Below are positions 33,566 to 44,283 of a stretch of DNA of 64,000 nt, piece by piece. Position numbers and translations under genes: made by a program. The stretch comes from Anaspis maculata. Its lineage: Eukaryota > Arthropoda > Insecta > Coleoptera > Scraptiidae. The notes below the pieces were generated by a model. It ran no database searches and had not been told where the DNA came from. It saw only the letters and a list, made by a program, of their open reading frames with translations. Location of the stretch: contig OX421962.1 in the NCBI GenBank assembly GCA_949128115.1, forward strand, positions 99,726,836 to 99,790,835, in the 5' to 3' direction. Within the stretch, counting starts at the first letter, position 1. Each line of letters begins with the position of its first letter.

Positions 33566-33869
33566 AACTATCAAATTTATATATTTAACATGCAATTTTT
33601 ATATGAATATTCTGTCTTTAAAAATATATATTTTTTGAAAACAACAATTATTTTTGTAATTAAAAATATATTTTTATTTTGCGAAAATATTTATTTTTCA
33701 ACACAATAATTATTTTTTCGATAAATTACAATATTTATATTAAAAAAACCATATATATATAATTGTAAAAGAATAATTATTATATTTATTTATTTTTATA
33801 AATATTTTTTCTTGAGAATATTTATTTAAAAAAAGAAACATTGTTTCCAATTCGTGAACTAAAATAATT

Positions 33870-36800
33870 GGACGGACCCCGGGTAAAAGGGAATAAGTCA
33901 GAAATAGCAAATGTTCAGGAATCACAAAAAACCGTATGCGGTTTGAAAAACGATGTTAATTTCGCGGTTTTTGCAGAATATCACTTTCAACAATGTATTT
34001 AGGCACCTGCAATATGCTTTTCCAAAATAATAATAGTAATAATAAATTTTAGTGACTAGTTTCTTTTTACACTTGACTTGTTTCCTTTTACACTGACTTG
34101 TTTCTTTTCTCACCTCATTTTGTTCTCTTCTAATTGACTAAACTCCTTCTGCACTTCATCTTTTCCTTTTTTTACATAATTTTCTCATTCAGAGAGCCTT
34201 TAATTATCTGAAAGAATCAACATGTGCAATGTCCACTTTTGAAAATTTTACATGAATATTAAGAAAGAGCTTAGATCGTTGAGAGTGTAATGAAATAAAC
34301 ATCAGATATTAAATTTAATTTTTTTTTAATGTAGTAAAGAACCAAAAACACAATAAAATTGAAAATACAGTGATAGAAATGAATAATAATTCAGAAACAA
34401 ACAAAAAATTCAATTCAATCAATTTCAATCGGAGTCAGATTCCAAGATTGGATCAGTAACTGCCGATTTTGTAGTTGTCAAATTTTTATAAAAGTCATGG
34501 AATACTGATGGTATGTACGGTAGTAATGATATCAGGTCCCGTTTCTTCTCTTCTGTGATTGGAACAGGAGATTTATAAGTAAGTGAAGGTGAAAGTTGAG
34601 GAAAGTCCCTTGAGCGGCGTGATACATCTAGAATTGAGAAATCTTCTTCTTCTTTCAGAGATTTTTTGTAAAGAATCTTCAGGGGCTGATCCTTCACATA
34701 ACGCAGCCATTTGACATCTTTCCATACAAATTTCTCTTTGTTTTCGTTGGATTTACTCATATTTAAATCTGTTTTCAAAAGATTCGCATAGTTGTAAAAA
34801 TTAGTCTGATTCATTTCCTTGACCAAAAATGGATTTGTCTTGCGGGAGTGTCTAATCAGTTGGATCCAATCATGTGGGTGACTTATGGGTGTGTCGTGAT
34901 GTTTCTTAAACTTCTCGATTTGAGCATGGTCTGAATCACACTCCATTCGCGAATGCCCAGAAACCATGAATTTATGGTCCAGAACCTCAATCCCAGTCTG
35001 GTTAATAATTCGAATGCACATGGCTAGGAATATCGAATTCTTATTCTGGCCTGGACAAGTGTCACTGTACAGAATCAAAGACTTTACGTTGTCGGGCAAC
35101 TCCTTCACCGCTTCAAAAACACAAGACGCGATTTCGTTCGCTCCACGCTTTGCAACCGATTCATACCAGATGAAACATGTAGCCTTGTCATTCTTCATTT
35201 CGTGCACAGTCAAATTAAATGTCCAGAGTTGTCTTTTATAGAAAACCACTGATGTTTCCAAACTGGGAGTAGGCAAGCACTGCTGCAAATCAAATGCCAT
35301 AACATTCAGACTTTCTTCGGTTTTTGCTCTCAACTTGTCTTTTTTCTTAGTTTCATATGCCAATTCAGCCTCCAAGTGATGGAGTTCTTGTTGCTTCAGA
35401 ATAAGCTCTTTGTCTCCATCACCAGTAACGTGCGCCAGCTGCATTTTAAACTTGTCGCATGCCTGGCAAGTATCCTTGTGAGGTGATTTTATAGCCAACT
35501 TTAAATCGTGGAACAGTGTCTCGTATTTGGTGTAGCTAACAGGATTCTGGACAGTTTCACAATACATTTTGTACGCTTTTATCAAAGTGAAATGGGGAGG
35601 TAAATACTTTTTTGCCGTTTCCTTCCTGCAGTAGTGACTCTCGTAACATGGTAATGAATTCAAGTGTTGTCTCACTTCTTGCAACTTATTCTCAGGTATT
35701 TTATTAGGTGGAGAATGACGACCTCTCTTGTCTGGAGTTGCCACATTCGCACAAGAACTTTTCTTTTGGTTGCAGATGACCCAGAGAAATTTTGGAGTTT
35801 CATCGAAAATTTTCAAAAAACATTTTTTACAAACTTTTATTTGCTTTCCATTCACTGGTACGTGGTAACTCATTGTAACTTGCCGATTTTTCTGTTTTTC
35901 AGGGGTGTCCGTTCTCTTTCTTCGCACTTTTGGCGTGGAAAAAGTTACCAGACTGGATAAAAATACCGCTCGTTTGTCGCGAGATCCAAACTTCCAGTAT
36001 TTTTCAAATAAAGCTTTTTGGGTATCTTCCGAAATTTTTATCTGGCATCTATTCCGGCATTTATTTAGCTTCGTAAAGGTTTTCCCTCTTACATTCTTTC
36101 CCGATTCTGTTATATAAGCCTTGCCAGTATTGCGGCTTTTTTTTCTTTCTTCTCTTGCACCTCTGGTTCTACCTTTTGAACCTCGCTTCACACGAGGCAT
36201 GGCAGCATTGAAAAGAATTTGATTTTTCACGATCGTTTCATTGTGAAATTCGACGGGAGTGCCGGTAGGCACGGCTCCAACAAGCGACCGATTTTTGACG
36301 TGGGTATCTTTTCGAGACAATGGTTCTTCATCACTAATGCTCCACTCACTTGAGGTGCTGGTTTCATTATAATTGGGATCAGCAATGCTATCATCACTTC
36401 CAAAGGGATCTGTTTGATCAAAGGTTTCTTCTTGGAATATTGTCGACTCTGCAAATAATGATTTGAGTTTAATAAAACGTCGCATTAGTTCAACTTAGTC
36501 AAACACAACTAAGTTTGTACGACTGTTTGGACTTTTTTGGACTGTTTTTGGTGTGATAATGAATCCATTGGTATCGCAAATTAGATACAACAGAATTGAA
36601 ACTTCGATTGAAAATAGTGTACAACTAATAATAATTTAACCAGCTACCATCAGGATTAAGACCATGATCGGTTTCATCTTCTTCTGCAAATAGTTGTCGT
36701 TTGGCGGGTAGTTCTGAAAATTAAAACTATTTTATAAACAATACCTTCAAACTAATAAAAATTATTAAATTTGACCTACCGACAGATTTGTCATGGTGAT

Positions 36801-38108
36801 TCATAGGATATGGAATTTCGCAATTTTGGGACCTACTGTTCTCATGGTAATAGTAGTTGGAGTTAGAATCAATGATATTGTTGTTACCGCCAAAAAAAGG
36901 ATCCGCTTCAGCCGCAACTGCTTTCATATGCTGGTCTGAAAAAAAACGCACAGTTTTTGAGTTTAACTAATGTATCCGTGCTGCTGAAACTATAGAATGG
37001 CCCAGAAATTTTGTCAGAAAAAAACTCCCATTTGATGTGGAGGCCTCATGTGCAATTTGTTTTCCGAAATTCGGCCTTATGACGCAGATATGACACCTCA
37101 AAATTCGACTTATTTTCATGTTTTTTTTTTGCAAATAACTTTACTCATAAGCGGTCTGGCGCACCAATTTGTGAATTGACAAAGCAAAGATATGATTTTG
37201 CTCATTGTCTGCCTTGAAGTGAACTTTCAGAGAAATCCCACCAGTGCGCAGCGGTACCAAAGTCGAGTAACAGAAGTGCCAAAATAAAGTTGAAAATGCA
37301 CAGCTGCTCTTTATAACATGTAAGGAAGCTATGTTTTTTTCCTGAAACAATTTCTGGGACTCTCTGTATAAATTATTAACTACTGGACAGCTTACGAATA
37401 CCCTACCATAATGTGGATCAGGAATATCTCCGTCAGTTTCAACCCTAACCGCTTTTCTTTTAGCAACAGGTAGCTCTGGAAATCTCGCATTATTCCATGT
37501 TTGACAAGAAGTAGGTAAGTACCTACTTGAATAAAACTTACCAACTGATTCATCACGGCCACAACTTCTTTCGTATTGTGCTTTGACTGCTCCTGTGATG
37601 AGAAATATTTATTAAATCGTGACCATAGACCGATATGAGGTTAGATTTTAGAGGTTAGTTTGGCAATAAAGTTTTCCACACAAAGCAAAAAATTAAAACG
37701 CACTTACCTTTTGTAGGCATTTCAGCGATAGCTTTAGCAGCTTCAACTAGGGCCAAAGTTCGTTTTGAATACATGATTTTCACTGAGATTTTTCTTTAAA
37801 CAGCACCAACAGCGAACAGCACTTATCACTTAACAGTGTGAAATGGAGTAAGTTCAGGTGGTTGATCTGAAGCGCCAATACATATCACTTGCGTAAAAGG
37901 GAACAAGTCAAGTTATTCCATTTTACACAACTTAACTTTACTCTACTCTGAAATATTCCATTTTTCACAACTGATTTTTTCACGATTCAAAGCTTCAAAA
38001 AATTACAAGTTTTTTTCTACTGAAAGCTGCCACAATTGTTGATAATGATATGTGAAAAAGTGAAAAATGGCAAAAAATGACTTATTCCCTTTTACCCGGG
38101 GTCCGTCC
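33870..38108 (-). mobile_element. Complete DNA transposon: 31-bp TIRs, AATT duplication, spliced transposase gene
   Basis: Perfect 31-bp inverted ends start GGACGGACCCCGGGTAAAAG at 33870, and the inverse ends at 38108. AATT lies on both sides (33866-33869 and 38109-38112). The sister arm of the enclosing foldback has the empty site AAAATAATTATTCC near 43670, so the 4-bp duplication is supported, although AATT is palindromic and an insertion without duplication would look the same if the ends were AA/TT longer. Subterminal copies of the TIR core TGACTTRTTYCCTTTTAC lie at 34053-34113 and 37892-37909. The minus strand encodes an 810-aa spliced protein. The 4-bp target, size and protein type are compatible with the Sola group, but that assignment is tentative. 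Confidence 0.88.
34425..37774 (-). CDS. Putative RNase-H/DDE-type transposase (DUF7869-like), six exons, 810 aa
   Basis: Exons on the minus strand: 37708-37774, 37542-37592, 37407-37475, 36780-36935, 36648-36713 and 34425-36448. All five introns are phase 1 with GT-AG ends, and the joined frame is 811 codons. The five short exons encode an acidic/basic N-terminal tail with repeated modules (ELPVAKRKA, ELPAKRQLF, DP(H/F/N)). The last exon carries a Lys/Arg-rich stretch, Cys pairs (CRNRC, CKKC, DTCQACD) and a PDKRGRHSPPN element. Next come FDLQQCLPTP (Asp ~523), LYSDTCPGQNKN (Asp ~599) and SGHSRMECDSDHAQIEK (acidic cluster ~639-648), spaced like a DDE/RNase-H core. I recognise the pattern as the family labelled DUF7869 in insect genomes. 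The role as transposase is inferred from the enclosing TIRs and target duplication. The start ATG is the first in the first exon. No disabling mutation is visible. Confidence 0.85.
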
Positions 38109-38579
38109 AATTATTCCATTATGCATTATGCATTATTATAAAATAGGAGCAACGAAAAAATATATTTATAAGTGAGGTGGCGCTCGCGTCGCGCTTGATG
38201 TGATCCCGCGCTGGTACCACTGGTATGCATTGACAGTTCTGTTGACGTTGACGTTGGTGTTTGTTTGTTTTATGTGAAATGTGTGGTTACTACTAGCATT
38301 GTCTACTAGTTATGTTCTTGGCTCTGGTTGTTGGCTTCTGTTTTTTTCGGATCCATGAAATGAAATGGATGTGGCGGAGTTCTTACAGGGTCTATCTAAA
38401 ACCCGGAACAGGAATGGAATGGAACACGGTACGGTACGGTGGCGCGGAATACAACGGATTTATAAACGCGGAGCTGTGCATGTGCAACAAAATCGTTGGC
38501 ATAACCGCACTCCTTGGCCTGACATGTGGAATTGTGGAAGGGGAGACCTTGTAGTTTTAGAGATGGGCTTAACACCGTG

Positions 38580-39012
38580 TTCGGGAAAACGTGGAACGGA
38601 AAACCGCTTGATATTTCTGTTCCAAATTTGGCATGGACTTGCTCTATGACGATAGAAAATAAATGGAATTAAAAAAAACCCGTTCGTAAAAAGAAAAGTC
38701 GGTGAAAATTGCCTCCAAAGTCTGTTCCGGGAAACCTGGAACGGGAAACCGCTTGATATTTCTGTTCCAAATTTGGCATAGACTTGCTCTATGACGATAG
38801 AAAATAAATGGAATTAAGAAAAAACCGTTCGTTAAAAGAAAAGTCGGTGAAAATAGCACCCAAAGTCTGTTCCGGAAAACCTGGAACGGGAAACCGCTTG
38901 ATATTTTTGTTCCAAATTTGGCATAGACTTGCTTTATGACGATAGAAAATCAATGGAATTTAAAAAAAAAACCGTTCGTAAAAAGAAAAGTGGGTGAAAA
39001 TTGCTATAAAAT
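38580..39012. repeat. 144-bp tandem array, left foldback arm (3 copies)
   Basis: Units contain GGAACGGGAAACCGCTTGAT, TTCCAAATTTGGCATAGACT and GACGATAGAAAATAAATGGA. The copies start near 38580, 38727 and 38871. They are inverse to the array at 41607-43205 in the other arm of the 32059-44080 element. Confidence 0.9.
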
Positions 39013-39195
39013 CGTCATTTTCTATCATAGAAACATTTTGAGACCACCACTGTGTCAATGAAGAAAATCTCTATCCGAATACCAAAAAATATTTATTTGA
39101 AAATCGAAAGTCGGTGTTGCTTTATAATCAACGCAAAAAATAGCAAAAGCGCTGTCAAATACCCATTAACAATTTCAAATCTATGTATCCCATAG

Positions 39196-39340
39196 GAAAA
39201 TAGTATATTATGATACGAGTTTAATAAGACGAAGTTTGTCGCACGACTGTTTTTGGGGCCCGACGAACGCAGTGAGGAGGGTCCCAAAGGAAGGAGTGCG
39301 ACGAAACGTCTTATTAAACGAGTTCAATATACTATTTTAT
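39196..39340. repeat. 145-bp palindromic repeat
   Basis: AAAATAGTATATTATGATAC-type sequence at the left is mirrored by CGAGTTCAATATACTATTTT at the right. TTTAATAAGACG/CGTCTTATTAAA and GTCGCAC/GTGCGAC lie further in. The loop contains GGGGCCCGACGAACGCAGTG. No coding potential is seen. Confidence 0.7.
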
Positions 39341-39528
39341 CTATTTTGCCTAAAATATTTGAAAAAAATTGGAAAATTCTGGGGGTAGCAACGCCGTTCA
39401 GTGTCATATTAGTCGAGCGCCAGTACGACACGCATTTGCGTGTCGAAAAGTGGCCAGTACGATACGGGAGTAGATAAAAGTTATGAGCTGGTGCGGTTTT
39501 CGAAAAACACGGTATATACATATGTATA

Positions 39529-40254
39529 CAGAGTGTCCCAGCTAAAACAATCCAGCGCGATTTTCTCAGAAAATATCAAGACAACAAAAAAATGCAATTT
39601 GAATCTGGCGAGTTACAAGAATTCAAAAATTCATGATCGACTAAACAAAATACCTACTTCAGATGAAAAAAAACCCTCTTTTCTTAGGCTTTCCATGGAT
39701 GTGTCACCGATGTCTGTACCTGGCCCAATAAGCCAGAAATTCTGCCTCGAAGTCCAGCAAACACAATAATCTGAATTCATAACGACGTCATAACGATCAC
39801 ACACTTGTTGATTTTCATATCAGCCAGTATTCATTGCTATGGAGAATCCAGGTATATTAAGTGAAAAAGTCCTAGTAACGGCTGGTCTTGAAATCAACAA
39901 GTTTGTGATCGGTGACGTCACAGATTATTCCGATTATTGTGTTCGTCGGACTTTGAGGCAGAATTCCTGGCTTATTGGGCCAAGTACAGTCATCGGCGAC
40001 ACATCAATGCAAAGCCCAGAGAAAGAGGATTTTTTTTCATCTGAAGTATTTTGTTTTGTCGGTCTTGAATTTTCGAATTCTTGTGACTCGCCCGATTCAA
40101 ATTGAATTTTCTTGGAAACTAGAGCACCTACAAGCATCGTCGCCCCCTCAAAAGAATGCTAAAAGCTCAAGCTTTCCCCCAATTAAAATTTTTCCTTGTT
40201 GCCTTGATATTTTCTGAGAAAATTGCGCTGGATTGTTTAAGCTGGGACACCCTG
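39529..40254. mobile_element. 726-bp foldback element, CAG(A/G)GTGTCCCAGC ends
   Basis: It starts CAGAGTGTCCCAGCTAAAAC and ends TTTAAGCTGGGACACCCTG, flanked by TA (39527-39528 and 40255-40256). The arms share AATCCAGCGC(G/A)ATTTTCTCAG and CAGGCCGACAAAA-type blocks in opposite senses. The centre lies near 39800. The arm frames at 39440-39769, 39839-40105 and 39934-40137 are mirror images, not genes. Confidence 0.85.
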
Positions 40255-40258
40255 TATA

Positions 40259-40275
40259 CAGGGTGGTCCATCCTA
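40259..40275. mobile_element. Orphan CAGGGTGGTCC end
   Basis: CAGGGTGGTCCATCC follows TA directly after the previous element, so the spacer between the two elements is only TATA. I find no matching inverse end downstream, so this is probably the surviving terminus of a truncated family member. Confidence 0.5.
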
Positions 40276-40646
40276 GCGTAATTATCCCATAGCGGCCTTA
40301 CCGTTCAAGATAGGAAAAAAGATATAGGAGAAAAGTCATATGGTTTGATAAGACCTATAACCTAAAATTATTTTCAATGAATCGTCAATGAAATAGAACA
40401 CCTATATCATTTTGCATTTTCCTGTTCAATGCAAATTCAGGCTGTCTTGTGTCTGTATTTTTGTTTTTCAATTGTGTGGCAGTGCTACCAACTAAAAATA
40501 AAGAACAAAAAAAAATCGCATTCTCACAGTTTCTTCAAAAAAATCGTAGCGGCCTTGCTTTTCTCATCTAAGAGATGAATCTCAACATGGTGATAGTCAA
40601 GTCAAAGACCAATATCTCAATGTCAAAAAATTGCAATTTGTTTTTA

Positions 40647-41290
40647 CAGGGCGTTCACAAAAAAAATCGAACTTTAAAATTTTCAAAGTATCATATCTAT
40701 TTTTTTTTCAAAAGGCATCCTCCTAATTTTATAACGTTATCTGATAGCTTTTTCATCTTCTTTCATTTTTACTAGGGGTACCCCACCCTTGAACTTCATT
40801 TTTTCGAGATAATCGGAAATGTTCACAAAATTTGCTATTCTTTATATTTTTTTCCAACAATTTTGACCGTGATGAATGACAGACAAGCCAAGTAGTACAC
40901 AGCTCTCAGTTAGTCAGTCTGAATATTGTCGAATAAAGAAAAATGAAAATGACTTCACGCGAGAGGAAATTATTGATATGATAATCTGGTATTAATCCAG
41001 ATATCTAGGATTCCACTTTGTTGTCTTTTTGCGTTGAAGTAATTTTTTTGTTCGACAATATTCAGACAGACTAACTGACAGCTACGTACCATTTGGCTTG
41101 TCTGTTATTCATCACGGCCAACTCAATTTTTGAAAAAAATAAAAAAAAATAGCAAATTTCGTGAAAATTGCATATTACCTTGAAAACATGGAATTTAAGA
41201 GGGGAGTACTCCTATTAAAAATGAAAGAAGATAAAACAGCTATCAGATAACGTTATAAAATTAGGGGCATGCCATTTGAAAAAAAATAGT
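40647..41290. mobile_element. Foldback element with truncated right end
   Basis: The left end reads CAGGGCGTTCAC after TA. From about 40690 the sequence (TATTTTTTTTTCAAAAGGCA.. ATAACGTTATCTGATAGCTT.. GACAGACAAGCCAA) is mirrored, ending at 41290. The first ~43 bp of the left end have no partner, so the right terminus is lost. It is non-coding. Confidence 0.7.
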
Positions 41291-41606
41291 CATGATAGTC
41301 ATGGAATGATTAGAAATCACAATCCAGATCTCGTAAACGCCGAATAAACCAGTATGTGAACAAAACACATAAAAATGATAGTATTTAGTGAGGTTAGCAG
41401 GTCAGTCCGGTTGACGTTGACTCCGACATGGATGAAACTTGACAGATGCCAATGACACTATTGACATTTTGCCATAAACTCCCTCTACATGCAATCACCC
41501 TATAACGGTCTTGTTTCGGTGATCACCTTGCAGCTCGTTGTGCAGATATTTTTTCCTTGAGCATCCGCCCGAGTTCTCCCGCCTTACCGAGTGGCGGGAG
41601 AGCGTC

Positions 41607-43205
41607 AAGACTTTGGGGGCAACTTTCACCGACTTTTCTTCTTACGAATGGGTTTTTTTTAATTCCATTGATTTTCTATCGTCATAGAGCAAGTCCATGC
41701 CAAATTTAGAACAGAAATATCAAGCGGTTTCTCGTTCCAGGTTTTCCGGAACAGACTTTGGGGGCAATTTTCACCGACTTTTCTTTTTACGAACGGTTTT
41801 TTTTTAATTCCATTGATTTTCTATCGTCATAGAGCAAGTCCATGCCAAATTTGGAACAGAAATATCAAGCGGTTTCTCGTTCCAGGTTTTCCGGAACAGA
41901 CTTTGGGGACAATTTTCACCGACTTTTCTTTTTACGAACGGTTTTTTTTTTATACCATTGATTTTCTATCGTCATAGAGCAAGTCCATGCCAAATTTGGA
42001 ACAGAAATATCAAGCGGTTTCCCGTTCCAGGTTTTCCGGAACAGACTTTGGGGGCAATTTTCACCGACTTTTCTTTTTACGAACGGGTTTTTTTTAATCC
42101 CATTTATTTTCTATCGTCATAGAGCAAGTCCATGCCAAATTTGGAACAGAAATATCAAGCGGTTTCTCGTTCCAGATTTTCCGGAACAGACTTTGGGGGC
42201 AATTTTCACCGACTTTTCTTTTTACGAACGGGTTTTTTTTTAATTCCATTGATTTTCTATCGTCATAGAGCAAGTCTCTGCCAAATTTGGAACAGAAATC
42301 TCGAGCGGTTTCCCGTTCCAGGTTTTCCGGAACAGACTTTGGGGGCAATTTTCACCGACTTTTCTTTTTACGAACGGGTTTTTTTTAATTCCATTGATTT
42401 TCTATCGTCATAGAGCAAGTCTCTGCCAAATTTGGAACAGAAATCTCGAGCGGTTTCCCGTTCCAGGTTTTCCGGAACAGACTTTGGGGGCAATTTTCAC
42501 CGACTTTTCTTTTTACGAACGGGTTTTTTTTAATTCCATTGATTTTCTATCGTCATAGAGCAACAAGTCTCTGCCAAATTTGGAACAGAAATCTCGAGCG
42601 GTTTCCCGTTCCAGGTTTTCCGGAACAGAGTTTGGGGGCAATTTTCACCGACTTTTCTTTTTACGAACGGGTTTTTTTTAATTCCATTGATTTTCTATCG
42701 TCATAGAGCAAGTCTCTGCCAAATTTGGAACAGAAATCTCGAGCGGTTTCCCGTTCCAGGTTTTCCGGAACAGACTTTGGGGGCAATTTTCACCGACTTT
42801 TCTTTTTACGAACGGGTTTTTTTTAATTCCATTGATTTTCTATCGTCATAGAGCAAGTCTCTGCCAAATTTGGAACAGAAATCTCGAGCGGTTTCCCGTT
42901 CCAGGTTTTCCGGAACAGACTTTGGGGGCAATTTTCACCGCTTTTTCTTTTTACGAACGGGTTTTTTTTAATTCTATTGATTTTCTATCGTCATAGAGCA
43001 AGTCTCTGCCAAATTTGGAACAGAAATCTCGAGCGGTTTCCCGTTCCAGGTTTTCCGGAACAGACTTTGGGGGCAATTTTCACCGACTTTTCTTTTTACG
43101 AACGGGTTTTTTTTAATTCCATTGATTTTCTATCGTCATAGAGCAAGTCTCTGCCAAATTTGGAACAGAAATATCAAGCGGTTTTCCGTTCCACGTTTTC
43201 CCGAA
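41607..43205. repeat. 144-bp tandem array, right foldback arm (~11 copies)
   Basis: The marker GACTTTGGGG(G/A)CAA(T/C)TTTCACC recurs about every 144-147 bp from 41610 to 43062. Two sub-types are visible: the first five copies have AGTCCATGCC and ATATCAAGCG, and the later ones have AGTCTCTGCC and ATCTCGAGCG. The last unit reverts to ATATCAAGCG at the border. One copy has a 3-bp CAA insertion at about 42563. The outer neighbours are the unique arm sequence. Confidence 0.92.
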
Positions 43206-44283
43206 CACGGTGTTAAGCCCATCTCTAAAACTACAAGGTCTCCCCTTCCACAATTCCACATGTCAGGCCAAGGAGTGCGGTTATGCCAACGATTTTGTTG
43301 CACATGCACAGCTCCGCGTTTATAAATCCGTTGTATTCCGCGCCACCGTACCGTACCGTGTTCCATTCCATTCCTGTTCCGGGTTTTAGATAGACCCTGT
43401 AAGAACTCCGCCACATCCATTTCATTTCATGGATCCGAAAAAAACAGAAGCCAACAACCAGAGCCAAGAACATAACTAGTAGACAATGCTAGTAGTAACC
43501 ACACATTTCACATAAAACAAACAAACACCAACGTCAACGTCAACAGAACTGTCAATGCATACCAGTGGTACCAGCGCGGGATCACATCAAGCGCGACGCG
43601 AGCGCCACCTCACTTATAAATATATTTTTTCGTTGCTCCTATTTTATAATAATGCATAATGCATAATGGAATAATTATTTTAGTTCACGAATTGGAAACA
43701 ATGTTTCTTTTTTTAAATAAATATTCTCAAGAAAAAATATTTATAAAAATAAATAAATATAATAATTATTTTTTTACAATTATATATATATGGTTTTTTT
43801 GATATAAATACTGTAATTTATCGAAAAAATAATTATTGTGTTGAAAAATAAATATTTTCGCAAAATAAAAATATATTTTTAATTACAAAAATAATTGTTG
43901 TTTTGAAAAATAAATATTTTTTCAAAAAATATATATTTTTAAAGACAGAATATTCATATAAAAATTGCATGTTAAATATATAAATTTGATAGTTAGGATA
44001 AATATGTGCTCCAAGCTTTAAATAATTGGAATTTTAAAATATAACATCAATCATTAATAATGACACAAACGGCGCCTCATATTTGCCTCCCGGTACCTTA
44101 TTAATATTATTATTACAGATCGATGAGGGGGGGGGATATGCCCCTCATGCTCCCCCCATAAATACGCCACTTCTCTGGGAAGCGGGTGACCGTTTCTGAA
44201 CGCACTCCAGCTGTCGAACGTTGACAGACTTGTAAACTGGACGTCAACTGTCAAAAAAAGAACAGCGATAATAAGTGATAGCC

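Follow-up and report, generated by a model that had tools for sequence, protein, structure and literature searches.

A DNA transposon with 4-bp target duplications in Anaspis maculata carries a DUF7869 gene that very probably encodes its transposase

The 64,000-nucleotide stretch of Anaspis maculata contig OX421962.1 analyzed here (positions 99,726,836 to 99,790,835 of the forward strand; hereafter the window, in whose coordinates features are given) contains a DNA transposon of 4239 bp at positions 33870-38108. Its terminal inverted repeats (TIRs) are perfect over 31 bp and are flanked on either side by AATT, and its gene, on the minus strand, consists of six exons separated by GT..AG introns that join into a protein of exactly 810 amino acids (aa) without internal stop codons (Table 1). 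An earlier note, made from the letters alone, had described these ends, the flanking AATT and the uninterrupted gene, and all of them were recovered. Exon 6 encodes a domain of the Pfam family DUF7869 (PF25273), and we hold with high confidence that the locus represents a recently active, autonomous-type cut-and-paste transposon with the DUF7869 protein as its transposase.

The left flank of the element (33617-33869) pairs in inverted orientation with 43673-43925, as does 38109-38968, to its right, with 42817-43676. A single AATT belongs to both pairings, and therefore the sister arm of the foldback around the element retains the pre-insertion site, where the earlier note had placed it (near 43670). 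The foldback itself is large, spanning the window from about 33566 to 43994, with arms that are 97% complementary over 860 bp; both arms carry 145-bp tandem repeats, with three units at 38578-39012 and about a dozen at 41463-43216.

Further copies were sought in the assembly from which the window derives (758 Mb in 50 contigs), and the copy counts are lower bounds. With 131 bp of the left end as query, at least nine copies were found on five contigs at 99-100% identity. Both ends were present in all nine, and an exact 4-bp duplication flanked each of them, AATT in eight and AGTT (AACT in the window orientation) in the other; the probability that two random 4-mers agree is 0.0054 in the DNA examined. 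A protein search of the genome, in which 65 of the 321 candidates were scored, added no copy of the window family with or without ends, and neither search returned a copy of its gene lacking these termini. Excluding a 9.23-kb insert in one of them, eight near-full-length copies differ from each other by 0.17-0.51%, and because this divergence is so low, the recent activity proposed for the window element is supported by the comparison; given an insect-like substitution rate, this would put their age in the million-year range or below. For the ninth copy (L016) the difference is 0.69-1.0%, a value that its deletion junction inflates.

The 810-aa frame is open in four of the nine copies (the window, L010, L012 and L013), with the first aspartate of L012 changed to tyrosine although its frame is open. 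The other copies are defective: an early stop interrupts the frame of L011, L017 is frameshifted, L016 is an internal-deletion copy of 1598 bp, and L009 and the copy at 102.8 Mb of contig C2 have in common an 83-bp frame-breaking deletion plus further shared substitutions. These last two lie on different contigs, their flanks are unrelated and each has an AATT duplication of its own, which indicates that the 83-bp-deleted copy moved after it was broken and, judging from these alignments, that defective copies are mobilized in trans.

The C2 copy (L014/L015) also bears a 9230-bp insert at element position 376/377, between AAAA and TTTT and with no target duplication, whose ends read inward GGGTACTATCTG and GGGTATTATCTG. 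An open frame inside it looks, by eye, like a retrotransposon gag, and its insertion between an A-run and a T-run without duplication is reminiscent of Spy elements.

Exon 6 of the window gene scores 33.6 bits against DUF7869, for which the curated cut-off is 26 bits. Among the sister loci scanned, which belong to related families of the same genome, L030, L040 and L042 also pass this cut-off and L053 falls below it with 21.3 bits; DUF7869 is the sole Pfam family above cut-off in the window protein and likewise in the scanned sister proteins reaching any cut-off. The exon structure was compared with the two sister elements L026 and L027, whose proteins share 71% and 62% identity, respectively, with that of the window. 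The exon-6 acceptor is conserved in both, and the N-terminal 136 residues appear less certain than the rest of the protein because the match at exon 2 is short and no conservation was found against these two elements for exon 3 or the exon-4 acceptor.

Of the 67 matches obtained in the genome protein search, many belong to divergent families. Both ends were seen in 12 of the 21 sister loci first examined (L026, L027, L031-L035 (with L048-L052), L041, L042, L044, L047 and L053); several of these 12 are near-identical copies of one family, and many contain stop codons. Their protein identity to the window family ranges from 29 to 71% and their ends are of five types (GGACGGTCTC, CTGTGG, CGCTACC, CGTCG and CGAGGG), and all 12 have inverted ends with an exact 4-bp duplication. 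Because loci as divergent as these share the arrangement of inverted ends with 4-bp duplications, DUF7869 is very probably a transposase, in agreement with the argument of the earlier note that such a protein inside a clean mobile element would be one.

Taking the window family and its sisters together, the 4-bp duplication is exact in 21 of 21 loci and has the form A-N-N-T in 20, a pattern to which 9.6% of positions of the examined DNA conform. Strict AWWT targets (AATT, AAAT, ATTT, ATAT) occur in 13 of the 21, and the remaining ones include AACT, AAGT and ATGT, which are ANNT with G or C, plus one ATAA. For nine of the 12 sister loci (L041, L042, L047, L053 and the five belonging to the CTGTGG family) the ends obtained by repeat finding were 1-2 bases longer, and their limit was placed by analogy; the flanks of L041 looked like an 11/12-base direct repeat, but with the terminal T counted as part of the target they read ATGT on both sides. 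In the other nine of the 21 sister loci first examined (L029, L030, L036, L039, L040, L043, L045, L046 and L054) both ends were not seen within the DNA inspected, mostly about 1.5 kb per side, which does not speak for a lack of ends; L043 stops short on one side.

Searching the DNA with one sister end led to 15 places, five of them already included and nine newly examined, with C6:42186470 left out. Two of the nine, L058 (250 bp) and L061 (237 bp), are short non-autonomous copies of the CGCTACC family with both ends and ATTT on either side, and the poorly preserved L059 has a right end with eight mismatches and no duplication, so that two of three further end pairs are flanked by a 4-bp duplication. 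The remaining six places have one true end only; a second end pair printed for L062 turned out to be an internal repeat and not termini. Three members of one sister family, L033, L034 and L035 (on C1, C2 and C9), are 99.98-100% identical over 4.4 kb and, where they match the protein, share their in-frame stops, with different duplications (ATTT, ACTT and AATT). From these alignments they may have moved in trans as well, and introns could explain some of the stops. On contig C7, three different DUF7869 families (L053, L009 and L043) lie within about 80 kb (28.93-29.01 Mb).

The AlphaFold model predicts an RNase-H core with D523 in its first strand, D599 just past the fourth strand, and D641 and E648 on the next helix. 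In structural matches this predicted core resembles retroviral integrases (HIV, SIV, PFV and FIV) and mariner-type transposases (Mos1 and SETMAR). Thus, the layout announced earlier holds for the predicted RNase-H core around D523 and D599, and the model places both candidates for the third acid on elements of that core. Of these two, D641 is favored over E648, which is kept as a less likely alternative: in integrases the third catalytic residue lies near the start of its helix, and because D641 sits near the start of helix 518-532 of the model, it is more likely the third catalytic residue of the predicted triad. Residue conservation was counted in two alignments of 93 (A1) and 31 (A2) rows; D523, D599 and D641 are invariant in both, compatible with a triad of three aspartates (DDD), and E648 is nearly as conserved. 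In a sequence search with the protein, no chain of a solved structure matched at E <= 1. A comparison with viral predicted structures gave no match at E <= 0.001, the best one there being an RNase H.

The TIR motif GTAAAAGGGAATAAGTCA recurs within both ends of the window element, with nine sites at no more than five mismatches when the two TIRs are counted, whereas 200 mononucleotide shuffles gave a mean of 0.66 sites and a maximum of four. These subterminal repeats are candidate binding sites for the transposase. Both the window family and the CTGTGG family have the box TAAGTC at end bases 25-30, as does one end of the CGCTACC family; it is absent from the L053 end. In the sister element L029, at about 1110-1290, there are at least six copies of aaggraataagtcaagtgtc near one end, mostly 21 bp apart, which resemble the end motif. 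In the mechanism that we propose, the DUF7869 transposase would recognize the 31-bp ends, with the GTAAAAGGGAAYAAGTCA motif repeated within both of them as the probable site of recognition, excise the element by an RNase-H active site formed by D523, D599 and D641 (or E648), and insert it with a 4-bp stagger at A-N-N-T, here mostly AATT, which would generate the 4-bp duplication; the same enzyme would mobilize defective copies in trans.

Table 1. Features of the transposon and its surroundings, in window coordinates.
Feature	Position	Strand	Evidence
Target-site duplication AATT, left	33866..33869		Read from the sequence; exact 4-bp duplication
Left TIR, 31 bp	33870..33900	+	Reverse complement of 38078-38108
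Subterminal TIR-motif copies gtaaaagggaataagtca, three units	34053..34111	-	Motif scan, <=5 mismatches
Exon 6: conserved cysteines, DUF7869/RNase-H core, C-terminal part, stop codon	34425..36448	-	Pfam PF25273, E=3.7e-8; AlphaFold model
E648, alternative third catalytic acid (predicted)	34914..34916	-	92/93 rows A1, 31/31 rows A2
D641, likeliest third catalytic acid (predicted)	34935..34937	-	93/93 rows A1, 31/31 rows A2; near N-terminal end of model helix 518-532
D599, second catalytic acid (predicted), motif LYSDTC	35061..35063	-	93/93 rows A1, 31/31 rows A2; right after model strand 472-477
D523, first catalytic acid (predicted), motif FDLQQ	35289..35291	-	93/93 rows A1, 31/31 rows A2; model strand 396-403
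Exon 5	36648..36713	-	Both splice sites conserved in L026 and L027
Exon 4	36780..36935	-	L026 and L027 conserve the donor, not the acceptor
Exon 3	37407..37475	-	No support from sister elements
Exon 2	37542..37592	-	23-bp match around donor, L026 only
Exon 1, start codon included	37708..37774	-	Ungapped 74% match from start codon through donor in L026 and L027
Subterminal TIR-motif copies, right side, four sites	37838..37966	both	Motif scan, <=5 mismatches
Right TIR, 31 bp	38078..38108	-	Reverse complement of 33870-33900
Target-site duplication AATT, right	38109..38112		Read from the sequence; exact 4-bp duplication
Empty site in the foldback's sister arm, with one AATT	43673..43676		Meeting point of inverted-repeat pairs

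Two other readings were considered. A 2-bp duplication next to ends that start with T would account just as well for the ANNT loci, including those of the window family and its empty site, since 20 of the 21 loci have a T to the left of the end and an A to its right. This boundary was set aside: ATAA flanks L044 on either side, and the T is missing from the single ends L055 (ATAA), L060 (AGTG) and L063 (ATAA). The other is that, as the mobility is inferred and TIR elements can capture genes, DUF7869 might be a passenger or host gene within a non-autonomous element moved by some other transposase. We regard this as very improbable, given that all 12 sister loci with both ends (of the 21 first examined) combine, at 29-71% identity, family-specific ends with 4-bp duplications, and that the predicted RNase-H core has invariant acids. 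The high similarity of the nine copies (99.3-99.7% in BLAST pieces) could in principle reflect segmental or assembly duplication instead of transposition, an explanation with practically no weight left, as it is already contradicted by the 1-kb flanks, which show no mutual similarity among the nine copies, and further by their spread over five contigs and by the empty site in the sister arm.

Accepting a DUF7869 transposase, the closest known kind of element has to be considered. Ginger transposons make 4-bp duplications and are TIR elements with an integrase-like strand-transfer core. However, their protein is described in PMC10741241 as highly similar in sequence to Gypsy integrase, whereas only DUF7869 is above cut-off here, and mariner elements produce 2-bp TA duplications according to the same paper, compared with 4 bp here. 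Sola elements are described there as having a DDD transposase, 4-bp target duplications, very variable termini and mostly 2-9 kb in length, and for Sola2, PMC3627910 gives AWWT targets in Dictyostelium fasciculatum and ATAT, AAAT and ATTT in Polysphondylium pallidum. Because the 4-bp duplication, the possible DDD triad and the variable ends match these published descriptions, on which the comparison is based, and the AT-rich A..T targets overlap those given for Sola2, the Sola superfamily, most likely near Sola2, is the best placement, likely but unproven; unlike in these Sola2 elements, the present targets include AACT, AAGT, ATGT and one ATAA. On the other hand, the likeness is to published descriptions, Pfam classes the domain as of unknown function, and DUF7869 or PF25273 was named in no paper of the open-licence literature searched. 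DUF7869 might thus define a DDE/D superfamily of its own distinct from Sola1-3, for which we see a minority chance, considering that the features just listed agree with Sola as described and that ANNT overlaps the AWWT of dictyostelid Sola2. Slightly less probable still is the fuller version of this idea, in which a superfamily outside Sola1-3, characterized by A-N-N-T targets, repeats of the end motif and an integrase-like enzyme, would be spread among insects and molluscs and have gone unrecognized because its genes are annotated as uncharacterized host genes. Repbase entries may well already contain DUF7869 elements. Viral and prokaryotic contigs gave 10 and 47 pattern-matching stretches, respectively, none encoding a relative by tblastn, a result of little weight, as those collections contain no eukaryote genomes.

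The kind of element described here is already known, and its value lies in a function for a large group of uncharacterized proteins and in clean copies. Among the best 120 of 454, 562 and 886 insect and mollusc matches, the named relatives are mostly "uncharacterized", "hypothetical" or "unnamed", much as had been anticipated for insect databases, and on the present evidence these DUF7869 relatives are probably transposases. If so, gene annotation would become cleaner and insertions with 4-bp duplications easier to class. Moreover, the genome of A. maculata supplies several copies of full length and minimal divergence whose frames are open and whose ends are defined, which makes the activity of a Sola-like group directly testable.
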